Positions 1-6,121 of a stretch of 44,275 nt of DNA are shown here, piece by piece (positions within the stretch are counted from its first letter, which is position 1; every line of letters starts with the position of its first letter). The translations under genes and the position numbers were made by a program. The DNA lies in assembly GCA_017506175.1 (NCBI GenBank), contig JAFVNW010000053.1, positions 1-44,275 on the forward strand. Reading direction: 5' to 3'. The notes below the pieces were generated by a model, which was given only the letters and a program-made list of their open reading frames with translations, was not told where the DNA came from and ran no database searches. The stretch comes from Bacteroidales bacterium. Lineage in GTDB: Bacteria; Bacteroidota; Bacteroidia; Bacteroidales; WCHB1-69.

Positions 1-18
1 AGCATACGATAAATTGTG

Positions 19-117
19 TATCTTTGCGTTTCATTTAGGTGTTGCATGTCATTTTATTTTTGGTCGAACAAAATTACATTTTAACACCAATCTGGCTGGC
101 TTCGGTCAGCCTTTTTT
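19..117 (+). ncRNA. Candidate short leader transcript or small RNA with terminator
   Basis: A Bacteroidota-type -7 box (TATCTTTG, 19-26) is followed about 70 bases later by a strong intrinsic terminator (94-117), so a transcript of roughly 85 nt is predicted. Between them lies a possible 12-codon ORF (46-84, peptide MSFYFWSNKITF), in which five of twelve residues are aromatic. It ends 9 nt before the terminator stem, an arrangement like a leader-peptide attenuator. No gene follows on this strand for over 600 nt, so it could be a stand-alone small RNA, an orphaned attenuator, or chance. The -33 element would lie outside the window. Confidence 0.35.
94..117 (+). terminator. Intrinsic terminator
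   Basis: The stem GGCTGGC (94-100) and GTCAGCC (105-111) is closed by a UUCG tetraloop and followed by six T residues. This is a textbook rho-independent terminator reading rightwards. Confidence 0.85.
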
Positions 118-147
118 ATAACTTTTTTACTTGAACTTATAATGAAG

Positions 148-179
148 AGATGAAAAGATTAAAGGATGAAAGGATGAAG
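148..179. repeat. Tandem octamer repeat, four units
   Basis: There are four consecutive 8-bp units: AGATGAAA, AGATTAAA, GGATGAAA and GGATGAAG. A similar five-unit array lies at 9458-9497. Both are intergenic. Their function is unknown. Confidence 0.7.
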
Positions 180-190
180 GAGGGATGTAG

Positions 191-264
191 GGCTGTCATA
201 TTATGGCAGCCAATCTGAGAATTGAAGGTTAAGATTATGTAGGGCCGTCGTAGCATGGCGGCCC
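191..264. repeat. Two short imperfect palindromes
   Basis: A 21-bp imperfect palindrome at 191-211 (arms GGCTG and CAGCC) and a 23-bp one at 242-264 (arms GGGCCG and CGGCCC) are each preceded by GTAGG. They look like two diverged copies of the same small palindromic repeat. With the composite element at 287-384 they fill the intergenic space left of the restriction-modification gene. No coding signal is seen here. Confidence 0.6.
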
Positions 265-286
265 ATTGATAAATGGGAGGATTCCA

Positions 287-384
287 CCCCGAAGGGGTGA
301 TATTCCAGTAACCTCAGACAAGGCCTCTTGAGGCCGCAGTCTGGGGTAGGGAAGTGCAGGGGGAGTGGCGTGTGGAAGACACGC
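287..384 (+). repeat. Composite palindromic element, left copy
   Basis: Three parts occur in order: a hairpin CCCCGAAGGGG (287-297), a 47-bp imperfect palindrome starting CCAGTAACC and ending CTGGGGTAGGG (305-351), and a hairpin with arms GCGTGT and ACACGC (368-384). The 47-bp core is repeated in inverted orientation, with the same length, at 4816-4862 beyond the restriction-modification gene, again between two hairpins. The family is not identified; it resembles REP or MITE-like interspersed palindromes. Confidence 0.7.
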
Positions 385-434
385 TACCTTCAGGAAAACA
401 CCCACTTTCTTGCATTTTTTTCATTCCTTTTCTC

Positions 435-475
435 GCAATTTTTGGCTCTAAAATTGCAAAAAAATGGTAAATTTG
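435..475 (+). promoter_or_regulatory. Predicted promoter with operator-like inverted repeat, upstream of the R-M gene
   Basis: A -7 box TAAATTTG (468-475) lies 23 bp from a TTTG (441-444), a somewhat long spacing for the Bacteroidota TTTG / TAnnTTTG promoter. A perfect inverted repeat, GCAATTTT (435-442) and AAAATTGC (450-457) with a 7-bp spacer, overlaps the -33 element and could be a repressor site. The promoter would give a 5' leader of about 270 nt. Confidence 0.4.
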
Positions 476-568
476 CAGCCGAAAATTTTACTAAAAACAA
501 TCGAAAAAACACAAAATAAAGGAAAAGAAGATAATTAATTATAATTGAGCTTTACGCTCTTATTCTCT

Positions 569-681
569 CACGGAAAATCGGCAAATTTTAAAGTGAAAGC
601 GGGAATTAAGTAGCGAAAGCTGCGCTCAAGGGCGTGGGCTTTTGTCTTATTTCGCTTTCTGGCTTTGCCGAGCCGTCCGTG
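569..681 (+). other. Nested inverted repeat, predicted structured 5' leader of the R-M gene
   Basis: Three helices nest inside each other: CACGGA (569-574) with TCCGTG (676-681), CGGCAAA (579-585) with TTTGCCG (664-670), and GAAAGCG (595-601) with CGCTTTC (653-659). The inner part extends with further imperfect pairing. All three pair in the correct nested order over 113 nt, which is unlikely by chance. It lies between the predicted promoter and the start codon at 755. It could be a regulatory RNA leader or the remnant of a small mobile element. Confidence 0.55.
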
Positions 682-754
682 AAAATAGGGCAAGTAAAAA
701 AGTTCCACGCTTTTTTATTACTGTCCGAGGATAAAATTATTAGGCAGTGATACA

Positions 755-3700
755 ATGATAACAAAAGATAATTTAGCAAATCTTCTAACACACTTCGGCT
801 TCTCGGAAAGCAACAATATTTACACGAAATCATATACCACAGGTGCAAGCATTGAAGTCAACTTCAATACGCAAAAAATCACTTACGCACCATTAGATGA
901 TACTCTTACTGAAGGACAATTTCCATCTAAAGAAAAAACTGCAAATGGATTTGTGGTTCACCGTGATACAACGCTGAATTTCAATGCTAAAGAGAATTTT
1001 GTCTGCCTTGTCTGCGTGCATCTTCTGCTTGAAAAGGGTTATGAAGCAAAGCACATTGTTTTTGAACCTGCATTCAAGGTCGGGCATGTGAACAAACCAT
1101 CATACGGCGATATTCTTGTTTTCGACAAGGAGTATAAACCGCTTGTGCTGATTGAAAACAAGACCTACGGCAGCGAGTTCAGCCACGAATGGAACAATAT
1201 GCAGAAAGACGGAGGACAGCTTTTCAGTTACCTCGGTCCGCTTGTGAACGAACTTGGCTTCTGCGAAAATCTTGTGCTTTTTGCGGCTGATTTCGAAGAT
1301 AAATTGATTCTGAAAAATCATATCATCACGCTGAAGGACAATGAGAAGCGTATTGCCGATTTGGACAATCCGAAAACATTCGGCAACGCACAAGGCAAAT
1401 ATTTCGATGTATGGAATGAAACTTATGCAAAATCATTCGAGACAAAAGGCTTGTTCGAGCCCGATATTGCCGCTTATTCCATTGGGAAACTGAAATATAC
1501 GGTTGCCGATTTGAAGGAGCTCTCGCACGCTGAAATCCGTCCGATTTACCATGAGTTCGCCACCATCTTGCGCAACCATGCCATAACCGATTTTGAGCAT
1601 TCGTTCTACATTCTGATTGATCTGTTTCTCTGTAAAATCACCGACGAGCGCAACAATCCCGATGATTTGCAATTCTATTACAAAGGCATCACACGCGACA
1701 CGCCAAAGGATTATTGCAACCGATTGTTGAAGCTATATCAGGAAGGCAAAAAACAGCTTTTCAATGTCGAGGTCGTGAACAAGGAGGAAAGCGATATCAA
1801 GCAGATTTTTGAGGACACAAACCGCTCTGTAACAAATGGTCTTTTCGCTGGAATCAAGGAGCTGTTTGAGGAAATAAAATTCTATAACATCAAGAAATTC
1901 AATTTTATAGATGTAGAGAATAAAGAAGATTTTGAAAAGAACTTCCAAATTCTCATCAAGATTGCCGCGCTTATTCAAGATATAAACTTGAGCAACAGCG
2001 AAACGAACCACTTCTTTGGCGATTTGTTTGAAGGTTTGCTCTCTAAAAATGTGCATCAGACGGAAGGTCAGTTCTTTACGCCGCTTCCGATTGTGAATTT
2101 CATCATCAAATGTCTGCCAGAGTTTCCTAATTCAAGTAATGTGAAAGTGCTTGATTATGCTTGCGGTGCGGGGCATTTCCTTACGGAGTTTATAAAGAAC
2201 TATCCCGCCGCCAAAGCATACGGCATTGAGAAAAGCCAGACACTCAGCCAAGTGGCTAAAATAGCAACCATCATCAACGGCAGCAAGGATGCCCGTATTG
2301 TTTTCAAAGATTCGCTTAGTGTCCTCAACACGCAGGAAATCCGTTTTCAAGGGTTCGACAATGATAGTTTCGACTGCATCATAGCCAATCCGCCGTATAG
2401 CGTGAAAGGCTTTTTGAACACGCTGACCGTCAACGACCGTCAACAATTCGACCTTATCCGTTTTGTGGAGGAAAAAGCATACGGCGCGAATAACAGCATC
2501 GAGTGTTTCTTTATTGAACGCACAAAGCATTTTCTGCGTTCAAACGGATTTGTCGGCATCGTTTTACCGAGCTCAATCCTTTCAAACGGCAACCTTTACA
2601 TAAAGACGCGTGAACTGCTATTCGCCCATTTCAACATCTTGGCTATTGTGAACTTGAACAGCCGCACTTTCGGTTCTACTGGCACAAATACCATTGTCCT
2701 TTTCGCCCAAAGAGTGAAGAACAAAAATTCACACGGGCTTTTAGAGACATTTATAGCAAAGAAGGATTACACGCAATACACGACGTATAAAGCAATTGAG
2801 AATTATATTCAAAAGCAAGGTTACGATGAATCGGCATATTTCGAGTTTATGCAAGATGATGAGTTGTCCGAAGAACTCGAACAACATGAAATATTTGCCG
2901 ACTACAAACGGAATTTCACATCGTCGCCGATAAAGAAGACCGTTCAAATGGAATGGTTCAAGGCTTCGACGTTTTTCAATGATGAAGTAAAGGAAAACAG
3001 CAAAGAATACAGAAAACTCTTTGCCGATTTTTGCCAAAGCAACGAATATAAAACGCTGGAAAAGAGAGAACAATGCAAACAGTTTATTGCCTTTGCAAAG
3101 GCGATAGAATGCGACAAACTCAATACTTTCATTCAGATAGAGAACAACCAAGTTGCCATTCTGCAATCGCCGCCCGACAAAGTTGGGAACAAAAGCAACA
3201 AAGCGCAGATTGTCAAATTCTTGGGCTACGATTGGAGCAATCGCAAAGGCGATGAGGGCATAAAATATGTGACCAACAAATCCTTTGTTGAAAATGGCGA
3301 AGACGCGATCGACAACGATGACAGCGATACAGAAGCGGTAACTGCCATCAACTCAATAAAATATATCGACACGCCGCTGTACAATCCTAACGATGCGTGG
3401 GACTGCTCGAAGTTCGCGTTTGCCATCCGCAAGCATATTTACGGGCAATGCCGCAAATTCTCTTTCGGCGAAAACGAGAAAGAAATAAATGCCGACTTCA
3501 ACGGCGAAATGGGCGAGCTGTTTTCATTCGCCAAATTGTCGGATATGGTTGATTTCAGCCGAACGGAGTTCGACAAGGCGATAAAACTAACGGCAGACAA
3601 GAAAATTGAAATTGTGAGCAAGTATCCGTTGGTTAGGTTGGGTGGAGATGATGGTGTCTGTAACATTTTGATTGGTGGCACACCTTCAAGAAAAAATGCT

Positions 3701-4741
3701 GCATATTTTACAGGTAATAATTTGTGGGTTTCTATTGCAGAAATGAAAGGACAGGTTATTACAGATACTAAAGAAAAAATCACTGATGCAGGAGTAAAAA
3801 ATTCAAATGTTAAACTAATACCCAAAGGAACCACTCTTTTAAGTTTCAAACTCAGCATTGGCAAGACTGCTATTGCTGGTGTGGATTTATATACAAACGA
3901 AGCGATAGCCGCATTAATCCCTAAGGAAACAAATCCTAATTCAGAAAAATATGTCTCAGATGAATATCTTTTCGCATTATTCAATGGCAAATTAATTGAC
4001 CTTGAAAATGTTGGGAATAAGGCTTTTGGGAAGAGTTTGAATAGTGCATACTTAAACAATGAGGTCAAAATTCCTCTTCCGCCTTCCGATATTCAACAAA
4101 AAATCGTTTCCGAATGCGAAACAGTTGATGAAGAATACAACAACAGCCGAATGAGTATAGAGGAATACAAAAAAAAGATTGCAGAAGTGTTTGAGCGTCT
4201 TGAAGTTATAAGTAAAATGGGGGGGGTAACTTGCAGATTATCAAATAGTTATATTTTTGATATTTCTATCGGTCGCAGAATACTTAACACGGAAGTTAAT
4301 CCGAATTATGACATCCCTGTTTATAGCGCAAACGTATTTGAACCATTCGGAATGATAGACAAACTTCTGATAGAAGATTTTTCTAAGGAATCTGTGCTGT
4401 GGGGGATAGATGGTGATTGGATGGTAAATGTGATTCCAGCCAATAAACCGTTTTATCCAACAGACCATTGTGGAGTGTTGCGAATAAAAACAGATGACAT
4501 TTTGCCCAAATATATGGCTCACTTGTTGGAGGAAGAAGGTAAAAAAGTAGGTTTTAAACGCAGTTACCGTGCTTCAATTGACCGAATAGAAAGTTTGTCG
4601 GTGAAAGTTGCTCCAATAGAAGAACAACGAAAAGCAGTTTCCGAAATCGAATCCTACGAAGCCGAAATCGCCAAAGCAAAAGCAGTGATGGCAGGTTGTG
4701 CCGAGCGGAAAAAGCAGATTTTGGAGAAGTGGCTGAGATAA
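755..4741 (+). CDS. Single-chain restriction-modification enzyme (Type IIG / fused Type I-like R-M-S)
   Basis: This 1328-residue enzyme should cut DNA and methylate adenine at a specific site. The N-terminal part carries a PD-(D/E)xK nuclease signature (D119, E134-N-K136), followed by QLFSY at 155-159, which resembles the QxxxY motif of HsdR nucleases. The N6-adenine methylase domain has an S-adenosylmethionine motif (VLDYACGAGHF, 465-475) and the catalytic NPPY (548-551). The C-terminus holds two HsdS-type target-recognition domains (about 957-1125 and 1165-1328) joined by a charged, probably coiled-coil segment. No helicase motor is seen, so it is not a classical Type I restriction subunit. 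A run of eight G residues (4219-4226) lies between the two recognition domains. The recognition-domain region looks more AT-rich than the rest, as expected for exchanged specificity modules. Inverted composite repeats flank the gene. Its specificity cannot be deduced. Confidence 0.9.
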   Translation: MITKDNLANLLTHFGFSESNNIYTKSYTTGASIEVNFNTQKITYAPLDDTLTEGQFPSKEKTANGFVVHRDTTLNFNAKENFVCLVCVHLLLEKGYEAKHIVFEPAFKVGHVNKPSYGDILVFDKEYKPLVLIENKTYGSEFSHEWNNMQKDGGQLFSYLGPLVNELGFCENLVLFAADFEDKLILKNHIITLKDNEKRIADLDNPKTFGNAQGKYFDVWNETYAKSFETKGLFEPDIAAYSIGKLKYTVADLKELSHAEIRPIYHEFATILRNHAITDFEHSFYILIDLFLCKITDERNNPDDLQFYYKGITRDTPKDYCNRLLKLYQEGKKQLFNVEVVNKEESDIKQIFEDTNRSVTNGLFAGIKELFEEIKFYNIKKFNFIDVENKEDFEKNFQILIKIAALIQDINLSNSETNHFFGDLFEGLLSKNVHQTEGQFFTPLPIVNFIIKCLPEFPNSSNVKVLDYACGAGHFLTEFIKNYPAAKAYGIEKSQTLSQVAKIATIINGSKDARIVFKDSLSVLNTQEIRFQGFDNDSFDCIIANPPYSVKGFLNTLTVNDRQQFDLIRFVEEKAYGANNSIECFFIERTKHFLRSNGFVGIVLPSSILSNGNLYIKTRELLFAHFNILAIVNLNSRTFGSTGTNTIVLFAQRVKNKNSHGLLETFIAKKDYTQYTTYKAIENYIQKQGYDESAYFEFMQDDELSEELEQHEIFADYKRNFTSSPIKKTVQMEWFKASTFFNDEVKENSKEYRKLFADFCQSNEYKTLEKREQCKQFIAFAKAIECDKLNTFIQIENNQVAILQSPPDKVGNKSNKAQIVKFLGYDWSNRKGDEGIKYVTNKSFVENGEDAIDNDDSDTEAVTAINSIKYIDTPLYNPNDAWDCSKFAFAIRKHIYGQCRKFSFGENEKEINADFNGEMGELFSFAKLSDMVDFSRTEFDKAIKLTADKKIEIVSKYPLVRLGGDDGVCNILIGGTPSRKNAAYFTGNNLWVSIAEMKGQVITDTKEKITDAGVKNSNVKLIPKGTTLLSFKLSIGKTAIAGVDLYTNEAIAALIPKETNPNSEKYVSDEYLFALFNGKLIDLENVGNKAFGKSLNSAYLNNEVKIPLPPSDIQQKIVSECETVDEEYNNSRMSIEEYKKKIAEVFERLEVISKMGGVTCRLSNSYIFDISIGRRILNTEVNPNYDIPVYSANVFEPFGMIDKLLIEDFSKESVLWGIDGDWMVNVIPANKPFYPTDHCGVLRIKTDDILPKYMAHLLEEEGKKVGFKRSYRASIDRIESLSVKVAPIEEQRKAVSEIESYEAEIAKAKAVMAGCAERKKQILEKWLR
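4219..4226 (+). repeat. Poly-G tract (8 G) between the recognition domains of the R-M gene
   Basis: Eight consecutive G residues encode the end of codon M1155, two glycines and the first base of the next codon. With seven G the next codon is TAA. With nine G the frame reaches TAG after about nine codons. Either change would remove the second recognition domain. Such tracts are classic sites of slipped-strand mispairing. Confidence 0.9.
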
Positions 4742-4745
4742 TTCC

Positions 4746-4770
4746 ATTCGCGCAATTCGCGCAATTCGCG
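4746..4770. repeat. Short tandem repeat of ATTCGCGCA
   Basis: Nearly three 9-bp units (ATTCGCGCA, ATTCGCGCA, ATTCGCG) start 5 nt after the R-M stop codon. Their function is unknown. Confidence 0.8.
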
Positions 4771-4780
4771 GTCAATAGTC

Positions 4781-4883
4781 GCGTCTCTCCGAGACGCTAT
4801 GGCCCTACCGCGCATCCCTACCCCAGACTGCGGCCAATTTGGCCTTAGTCTGGGGTTACTGGGAGTGCGTTCCTCCGGAACGC
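4781..4883 (-). repeat. Composite palindromic element, right copy, inverted
   Basis: A hairpin with arms GCGTCTC and GAGACGC (4781-4797), a 47-bp imperfect palindrome (4816-4862) and a hairpin with arms GCGTTCC and GGAACGC (4867-4883) occur in order. The core is the inverted counterpart of 305-351: on the minus strand it again starts CCAGTAACC and ends CTGGGGTAGGG. Together the two copies bracket the R-M gene. The rest of the stretch to 5044 is AT-rich and holds a weak hairpin at 4980-5010 that may end the permease transcript. Confidence 0.7.
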
Positions 4884-5044
4884 AAAAGGATGAAGGGTCA
4901 CGTTATTGCATTGACAATCAAGTATTTTGAAATGTGGATTATCGCAACAGTACTATTCCGCGTCTTACAAGCTAAAAGTAGATAATTCCCCAATTTTTTT
5001 AGGGTTATCTGCAAGAAAACAGTAAATGAAAAACCGCTTGCCGC

Positions 5045-6121
5045 TTACGCCGTCTTGACCCGCGGGTCGAGCCAGCCGTAGATGATGTCAACGATGATGT
5101 TGATAATCACAAGGATGACGGAAACGTAAAGGAGAGAGCCCATCACAACCGGGAAATCATATTTGTCGAGGGCATCTACAATCACCACGCCCATGCCTTT
5201 CCAATCGAAGATGTACTCCACGAAGACGGCACCCGCCAGCAGGGAGGCAAGCCAGCCGGAAACGGCGGTCACCACTGGGTTCAGCGCGTTTTTCAAGGCG
5301 TGGCGAAGCATAATCATGGATGGAGCAACGCCTTTCGCCCGCGCCGTACGGATATAGTCCTGTGCCATCACGTCCAGCACCGAGTTCTTCGTCAGTTCTA
5401 TTACAATGGCTAATGGCCTGATTCCCAATGTAATGGCGGGTAGTATGATGTTTTTCAAGTCCAAATACATCCCGCTTCCGTAATTGTCCACGGTGTAGAG
5501 GCTGCCGAACATGCTCAAGCCGGTGTAGTCGGCCAACAGGAAGGCGAAGATCCAGGCAAAGAGGATGGCTGCGAAAAACGAGGGTACCGACATGCCTAAA
5601 ACAGAGAAGAAAAGCGCCGACTTGTCGAACCATGTCCCCTGGTAGATGGCGCACAGGATGCCGATGAAGATGCCGACGAAGATGGCGAAGAGGATGGCGA
5701 CGATGGCGAGGAGAAGGGTCTTTGGGAACGCTTCAACGATGATTTCACCCACCGGTCGTTTGCTCTGGTAGGAGCGGCGGAGGTAGGGCTTTTTCAGTAC
5801 AATAGAAGATTCATCGAAAGATAGTATCTTGACGTAGTGGTAGTTGCGGTCGTTGAGGTAGAAAAACGACTCGGTGTCCTTGGTCTTGTGCCAGGAGATG
5901 GGGGAGAGGTCGTTGAGGTAGGCGAGGTACTGCACGCCGATGGGCAAATCCAAACCGAGTTCCTTTCGGATGGCCTCTTCGGTTGCAATGTCGCTGCGTT
6001 GCCCCATCATCACACGGGCCGGATCGCTCGGAAGAACTGTGAAAAGGAAAAACACGAGGGTGATTACTCCGATGAGAAGTAAAAACCCATAGCCTATGCG
6101 CTTGAGAATGAACCGCAGCAT
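5045..6121 (-). CDS. ABC transporter permease, DppB/OppB type
   Basis: This is an integral membrane subunit of a peptide/nickel-type ABC importer. The 358-residue chain begins with a basic stretch and a transmembrane helix (about 10-32) ending in FTVLPSDPAR, the usual start of DppB-family permeases. An extracytoplasmic region of about 100 residues follows, then five or so helices. The cytoplasmic loop carries DYIRTARAKGV, the EAA-type motif that contacts the ATPase. It starts 6 nt after the response-regulator stop codon, so it is probably cotranscribed with the two-component pair. The usual DppC partner does not follow; the R-M region lies downstream. Substrate is unknown, and peptide uptake is inferred from the family only. 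Confidence 0.88.
   Translation of the reverse strand: MLRFILKRIGYGFLLLIGVITLVFFLFTVLPSDPARVMMGQRSDIATEEAIRKELGLDLPIGVQYLAYLNDLSPISWHKTKDTESFFYLNDRNYHYVKILSFDESSIVLKKPYLRRSYQSKRPVGEIIVEAFPKTLLLAIVAILFAIFVGIFIGILCAIYQGTWFDKSALFFSVLGMSVPSFFAAILFAWIFAFLLADYTGLSMFGSLYTVDNYGSGMYLDLKNIILPAITLGIRPLAIVIELTKNSVLDVMAQDYIRTARAKGVAPSMIMLRHALKNALNPVVTAVSGWLASLLAGAVFVEYIFDWKGMGVVIVDALDKYDFPVVMGSLLYVSVILVIINIIVDIIYGWLDPRVKTA

Follow-up and report, generated by a model that had tools for sequence, protein, structure and literature searches.

The window, that is the whole analysed stretch of 44,275 nucleotides, carries a gene for a single-chain restriction-modification-specificity enzyme (Table 1). In a profile search, PADLOC PDLC03624 (REase_MTase_IIG) matches residues 1-1327 of the 1328 with an E-value of 4.8e-273, and the same match to 755-4741 was recovered by a whole-genome search. 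An NCBIfam search returned no family above its cut-off. The nuclease-like region was located with Pfam PF13588 at residues 90-144 (E 0.00031, under the curated cut-off); the HSDR_N_2 score of 21.2 bits against a cut-off of 25 is a weak match. When six family members are aligned, D119, E134 and K136 show no variation. The nuclease domain expected of an AloI/TstI-type enzyme is presumably of the PD-(D/E)xK kind. The methyltransferase domain contains the motifs DYACGAGHF and NPPY.

For residues 936-1328, the specificity module, a model based on 55 aligned modules reached a mean pLDDT of 92.8 and a pTM of 0.83. The model gives the order TRD1, CR1, TRD2, CR2, with two recognition domains (TRDs) each followed by helical CR elements. 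The best Foldseek match of the module is the Type I HsdS structure 1yf2_A (E 5.2e-22); it also matches 8w0p_C (E 1.6e-10), the S subunit from BsaXI, a Type IIB enzyme. The DNA after the joint between CR1 and TRD2 is 77% identical to relative L080 over 459 nt and 74% identical to L124 over 401 nt.

Table 1. The enzyme gene, its domains and the features of the poly-G tract, in window positions
Feature	Position	Strand	Basis or content
Single-chain restriction-modification-specificity gene	755..4741	+	ORF, 1328 aa
Nuclease-like region, HSDR_N type	977..1339, limits approximate	+	PF13588 and alignment
N6-adenine methyltransferase domain	2006..2896	+	PF02384, residues 418-714, E 6.1e-31
TRD1	3560..4084, limits from model	+	PF01420 residues 967-1129, model, HsdS folds
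CR1, 46-residue helix closing the TRD1 half	4085..4222	+	Model: helix 176-221 of module
G8 tract	4219..4226	+	Met1155 (third base), Gly1156, Gly1157, Val1158 (first base)
TRD2	4226..4615, limits from model	+	Model
TAA in frame after loss of one G	4227..4229	+	1157-aa product (ATG GGG GGG TAA)
TAG in frame after gain of one G	4246..4248	+	1164-aa product
CR2 helices	4616..4738	+	Model: helices 353-378, 380-392

The window gene has R, M and two TRDs in the AloI/TstI order on one chain of 1328 aa. AloI, TstI and CjeI have R-M-TRD1-TRD2 on one chain of about 1250 aa, like the 8-G layout; unlike for the window gene, the accessible parts of the sources note no inter-TRD homopolymer in them (PMC3874165, PMC4027205). 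The earlier note on this DNA had called the enzyme Type IIG-like. The PDLC03624 match agrees with that label, but by domain order AloI/TstI-like (single-chain Type IIB) is a better description of the layout than plain Type IIG. The specificity part is fused to the chain and is not a separate S gene of the BcgI-like kind. The accessible text of the BsaXI paper (PMC11997821) describes RMS enzymes that have TRD1-CR1-TRD2-CR2 on a single chain. Other S-like stretches in the same genome (contig 71, E up to 1e-10) accompany a separate methylase gene.

Imperfect 53-nt inverted repeats (77%) at 305-357 and 4810-4862 flank the enzyme gene and represent the longest repeat in window positions 1-5100. The 16-nt core of this repeat occurs at one other site of the genome (contig 28), and a piece of it adjoins L003, a relative from the same genus; it is therefore probably an interspersed intergenic element. 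Shuffling of TRDs by recombination was rejected, since the repeat search of window positions 1-5100 found no repeat linking TRD1 with TRD2.

In the frame of the gene, the eight G are read as ATG GGG GGG GTA. Sequence and model bear out the claim of the earlier note that this run, at 4219-4226, is coding and stands exactly between the two recognition domains, with TRD1-CR1 before it and TRD2-CR2 after it. The modelled CR1 helix reaches to residue 1156 and the first TRD2 strand runs from 1158; the tract encodes residues 1155-1158 and would thus be the hinge itself. The early stops predicted in the same note are also found, TAA at once with one G less and TAG at 4246-4248 with one G more. The proteins encoded with 7, 8 and 9 G have 1157, 1328 and 1164 aa; counted from residue 1121, their remaining lengths are 37, 208 and 44. 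As had been claimed, the slipped products keep nuclease, methylase and one recognition domain; by translations and model, both the 7-G and the 9-G product retain TRD1 together with the whole CR1 helix.

For comparison, 84,980 species genomes were scanned, and the best 80 of 508 relatives were taken, so the sample leans towards the closest ones. Whole-genome searches added seven loci, including that of the window, which brought the number tried to 87; of these, 83 were anchored on the conserved residue E1121 and four (L031, L035, L085, L090) were not placed. A duplicate (L023, the same as L101) was removed, as were three contigs that stop at the joint or shortly past it (L025, L105, L119), which have no run in the sequence present before the contig end. 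The resulting set comprises 79 genes, the window's included. The joint was taken as 75-134 nt after the anchor, and the flanks were counted up to 3,400 nt upstream and 600 nt downstream, only while the anchor's frame stays open. Owing to these limits, a G14 near the start of L078 and parts of genes whose frame is broken elsewhere (e.g., L100, L107, L110) are uncounted.

In the 79 genes (best 80 of 508 relatives plus seven loci), 15 runs of at least eight G fall in 4,740 nt of joint, compared with 2 in 285,572 nt elsewhere, so the joint is about 450 times denser in such runs. Runs of C, A and T lack this pattern there, except for one C19. A G or C run of 7-33 at the joint is carried by 18 of the 79 genes, as G in 17 cases and as C in one. 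By their record names, these 18 genes from the same sample span Bacteroidota, Campylobacterota, Bacillota, Pseudomonadota and Spirochaetota; among those listed, Pseudomonadota is represented by one gene, from Moraxella boevrei DSM 14165, and Spirochaetota by one Treponema MAG, which carries the C19. Named strains also include, e.g., Helicobacter canis CCUG 32756T and Streptococcus sp. sy004. One linker class, delimited after the tract genes had been seen, comprises 29 of the 83 placed loci and holds all 18 tract genes, and the other 54 loci hold none. A tree was built of 72 RM parts from this sample, 15 with the tract, leaving out seven in-frame-short genes, three with the tract. On it the tract requires 8 changes, at least 7 of which are forced by well-supported branches according to a quick method.

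Outside the 79 genes, runs at the joint were seen in L169 (G9) and in L144, a contig from a viral collection (G8). The latter (L144:8226, IMG/VR) is a frame-broken relative whose TRD2 is 48.6% identical to that of the window enzyme. Within the best 80 of 508 relatives plus seven loci, the nearest relatives of the window gene come from gut and rumen Bacteroidales. The nearest by RM part (L076, 90%) has no tract, and among the five nearest by tree path only L073 has one. A profile search at E 1e-100 gave matches in 9 of 395 genomes, the own one included, and the eight further Bacteroidota relatives have no G or C run at the joint. A search of 13 genomes of the genus, the own one included, found one other relative, L003, again lacking the tract. 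At E 1e-30, the phage search gave no match to the window enzyme and the plasmid search gave two records, both distant Lactobacillus gasseri genes; viral contigs contained 7 relatives. A second allele of the window gene was not found among the 13 genus genomes (own included), phages, plasmids and viral contigs, so that tract variation at the window locus is inferred from relatives and not from the gene itself.

The relatives bear a further mark at the joint. Both alternative frames are closed within 7 codons of the tract in 16 of the 18 tract genes (best 80 of 508 plus seven loci). The same closure is found at the matching place in 23 of 61 tract-free genes (Fisher p 1.3e-4 against the tract genes, approximate because the sequences are related) and at 21% of upstream positions in the tract genes. 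At present, 10 of the 18 genes read through the joint, 7 are out of frame, and L137 has no long frame behind the tract. In all seven out-of-frame genes the downstream frame is open for at least 168 codons; L089, which belongs to these seven, is interrupted by a stop ahead of its tract as well.

Helicobacter sites with similar flanks carry G10, G14, G15, G15 and G17. L100 and L137 have G15 and G14, respectively, although the two genes share 98.5% identity across 2,908 nt, and 93.7% across 223 nt by the joint. Such differences are not proof, since the assemblies are drafts and long homopolymers can be miscounted. Variation of tract length across related genomes, on which the earlier note had staked its reading, is thus suggested by Helicobacter relatives (G10-G17, drafts), whereas of the window gene itself one allele is seen; its G8 falls at the short end, since many Helicobacter relatives have G13-G15. 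Three genes (L063, L072, L111) end naturally just after CR1, with 33-40 residues from the anchor on. In L063 and L111, an apparent remnant of the CR2 tail, read by eye, lies behind the stop, as if TRD2 had been deleted. These three genes suggest a viable one-TRD enzyme, but gene decay could explain them as well. As judged from their sequences, the relatives support selection for a slippery tract at this joint.

Specificity switching by a slipping poly-G is itself already known, and the comparisons below follow the accessible parts of the cited papers. The earlier note held the present arrangement to be little described. This stands for the single-chain inter-TRD version: within the literature reached by targeted searching, no single-chain R-M-TRD1-TRD2 enzyme with an inter-TRD homopolymer was recognised. 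The note missed, however, the closest precedent, HpyUM032XIII of H. pylori (PMC4450513), and its own example, NgoAV, is more distant. What is new here is the single-chain version and its recurrence across phyla.

HpyUM032XIII, a BcgI-like RM+S system, resembles the window enzyme in having poly-G between TRD1 and TRD2 and a fused nuclease-methylase; it differs in its separate S gene and G12/G11 tract, whereas the window enzyme has R, M and both TRDs on one chain and G8. When G12 was shortened to G11, the motif methylated in E. coli became CYAN7TTC in place of CYAN7TRG, the one-TRD form reading the palindrome CYAN7TRG and the two-TRD form the asymmetric CYAN7TTC (PMC4450513). The comparison with NgoAV of N. 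gonorrhoeae drawn in the earlier note, of poly-G, truncated S and altered specificity, holds: the truncated S reads GCAN8TGC and the fused form GCAN7STCA (PMC9577141). NgoAV shares with the window gene a poly-G in the specificity region and a truncated one-TRD form with symmetric specificity (PMC9577141, PMC6789123), but it is a Type I system with separate subunits and not a single chain. A laboratory fusion of half an HsdS to HsdM formed dimers and methylated the palindrome ACCN5GGT (PMC6158711). HaeIV carries one TRD on its single chain and has a symmetric site, and this layout with a palindromic site is what is predicted for the 7-G or 9-G product; HaeIV has one TRD as such, with no switch noted in the accessible text (PMC3874165). 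In the H. pylori Type IIG enzymes JHP1272 and HP1353-HP1354, a homopolymer changes the specificity of a single chain (PMC3936762), but there an MmeI-like TRD carries a small C-terminal add-on domain and no TRD1/TRD2 joint exists. The accessible parts of PMC6211672 and PMC6789123 leave this picture unchanged.

The explanation of the window tract that we favour, with moderate confidence, is that slipped-strand events switch the specificity of this single-chain restriction-modification enzyme. By sequence and model, 8 G gives R-M-TRD1-CR1-TRD2-CR2, and 7 or 9 G would give a stop right after CR1, leaving R-M-TRD1-CR1. Slippage at replication would alter the tract length often enough for a population to hold both forms. 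The two-TRD form would read an asymmetric bipartite site (TRD1 plus TRD2), and the one-TRD form, by analogy, would pair CR1 with CR1 and read a palindrome built from two TRD1 half-sites. Since neither form loses its nuclease or methylase, a change in cutting would be matched by the same change in protection. A slip would in this way interconvert two known natural layouts, that of AloI/TstI (one RM, two TRDs) and that of HaeIV (one RM, one TRD). TstI is a homotetramer, and since AloI-type enzymes are tetramers (PMC4027205), the one-TRD form may behave differently from that of HpyUM032XIII.

The same slip might instead serve as an on/off switch, the one-TRD product being inactive or degraded so that 7 or 9 G turns the enzyme off. 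Cj0031 of C. jejuni (Type IIG, G9), a single chain with poly-G like the window enzyme, does behave in an on/off manner and not by changing specificity (PMC4889913), and in one Type I system no methylation was obtained with TRD1 by itself (PMC3936762). Because not every half works, as seen with JHP1422, where one of two single-TRD constructs was inactive (PMC3936762), this explanation keeps a minor but real share of probability and is regarded as unlikely. It sits poorly with the position of the cut, which falls exactly after CR1 and leaves a complete half unit. A tract for on/off control would serve upstream too, whereas 15 of the 17 counted runs of at least eight G in the best 80 of 508 relatives plus seven loci are at the joint. 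The one-TRD relatives L063, L072 and L111 also argue against inactivation, though possibly decaying genes.

If the tract were a static Gly-Gly linker, the G8 would be a chance run of GGG codons and no biological switching would take place. In favour of this view, the G-runs of the window match shuffles: seven-G runs give 3 matches against 4.19 expected and are not over-represented. The 2.46-Mb genome contains 12 distinct runs of at least eight G (14 overlapping matches). Several of the other 11 sit in long ordinary-looking frames, and around them no other R-M gene was recognised in the first 70 residues of the longest frame. One, at contig 64:46335-46342, is a G8 inside the KGGVGKTT motif of a ParA-like gene, which is a caution against taking every G8 for a switch. 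The absence of the tract from four of the five nearest relatives (best 80 of 508 plus seven loci) points in the same direction. By arithmetic from the genome rate, a G8 in a given 60 nt is an event of about 1.5e-4, and random synonymous recoding of the same peptide produced a G8 in 2.4% of trials, a value that speaks against a linker acquired by chance. For nine in-frame relatives the recoding values ranged from 0.035% to 60%, being high where the peptide is a long Gly run. On its own the G8 exceeds chance only modestly, and the tract length alone is unremarkable; it is the comparison with relatives that appears to decide the matter. The approximately 450-fold enrichment at the joint over 79 genes (best 80 of 508 plus seven loci) and the clean closure of both other frames make a static linker distinctly improbable.

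Slippage of RNA polymerase or ribosome, giving both forms at a fixed ratio from unchanged DNA, would probably yield the same outcome from a G8 with stops in both other frames, but the DNA tract lengths differ between close relatives, and this explanation is very improbable.

Poly-G tracts are also found at other places in the family. Two L. gasseri plasmids (L149:3858, NZ_CP072179.1; L150:3858, NZ_CP118066.1) each have a copy of a distant single-chain relative. The two copies share 99.2% identity across 3,745 nt, but the run that lies between their nuclease and methylase parts is G9 in one and G8 in the other. Annotation splits the G9 copy into two genes, so that slippage may detach the nuclease and leave a methylase-specificity protein. 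In Helicobacter-type relatives, poly-G lies near the gene start (G14 at ORF nt 13 of L078, G13 at L167:1516, G9 at L169:1665), and L129 has G13 at ORF nt 2568, near the methylase-specificity joint. Seven relatives from rumen Bacteroidales and Prevotella (L066, L067, L068, L069, L071, L074, L075) are about 1490-1530 aa long, with 387-410 residues from the anchor on compared with the usual 195-235; this length would fit an extra TRD.

For the specificity switch proposed here, a wider generalisation can be put forward tentatively. Slips would interconvert two architectures, the tract having been gained and lost repeatedly in five phyla, and the family may be a domain scaffold shuffled by slippage. 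That poly-G occurs also at other joints of the same family is the ground for this reading, which would include a methylase without nuclease.

The action of AloI-type enzymes, with one RM for two TRDs, is called a mystery in a review (PMC3874165). The one-TRD and two-TRD forms would directly test this puzzle, because the same RM chain would be present at 1:1 and 1:2. If the switch is true, the annotation of short alleles as broken genes might be wrong. A single slip would then change what one protein cuts and protects, both here and in relatives in five phyla, which would matter for defence against phages, for the uptake of genes and for epigenetic switching in bacteria other than the usual pathogens.
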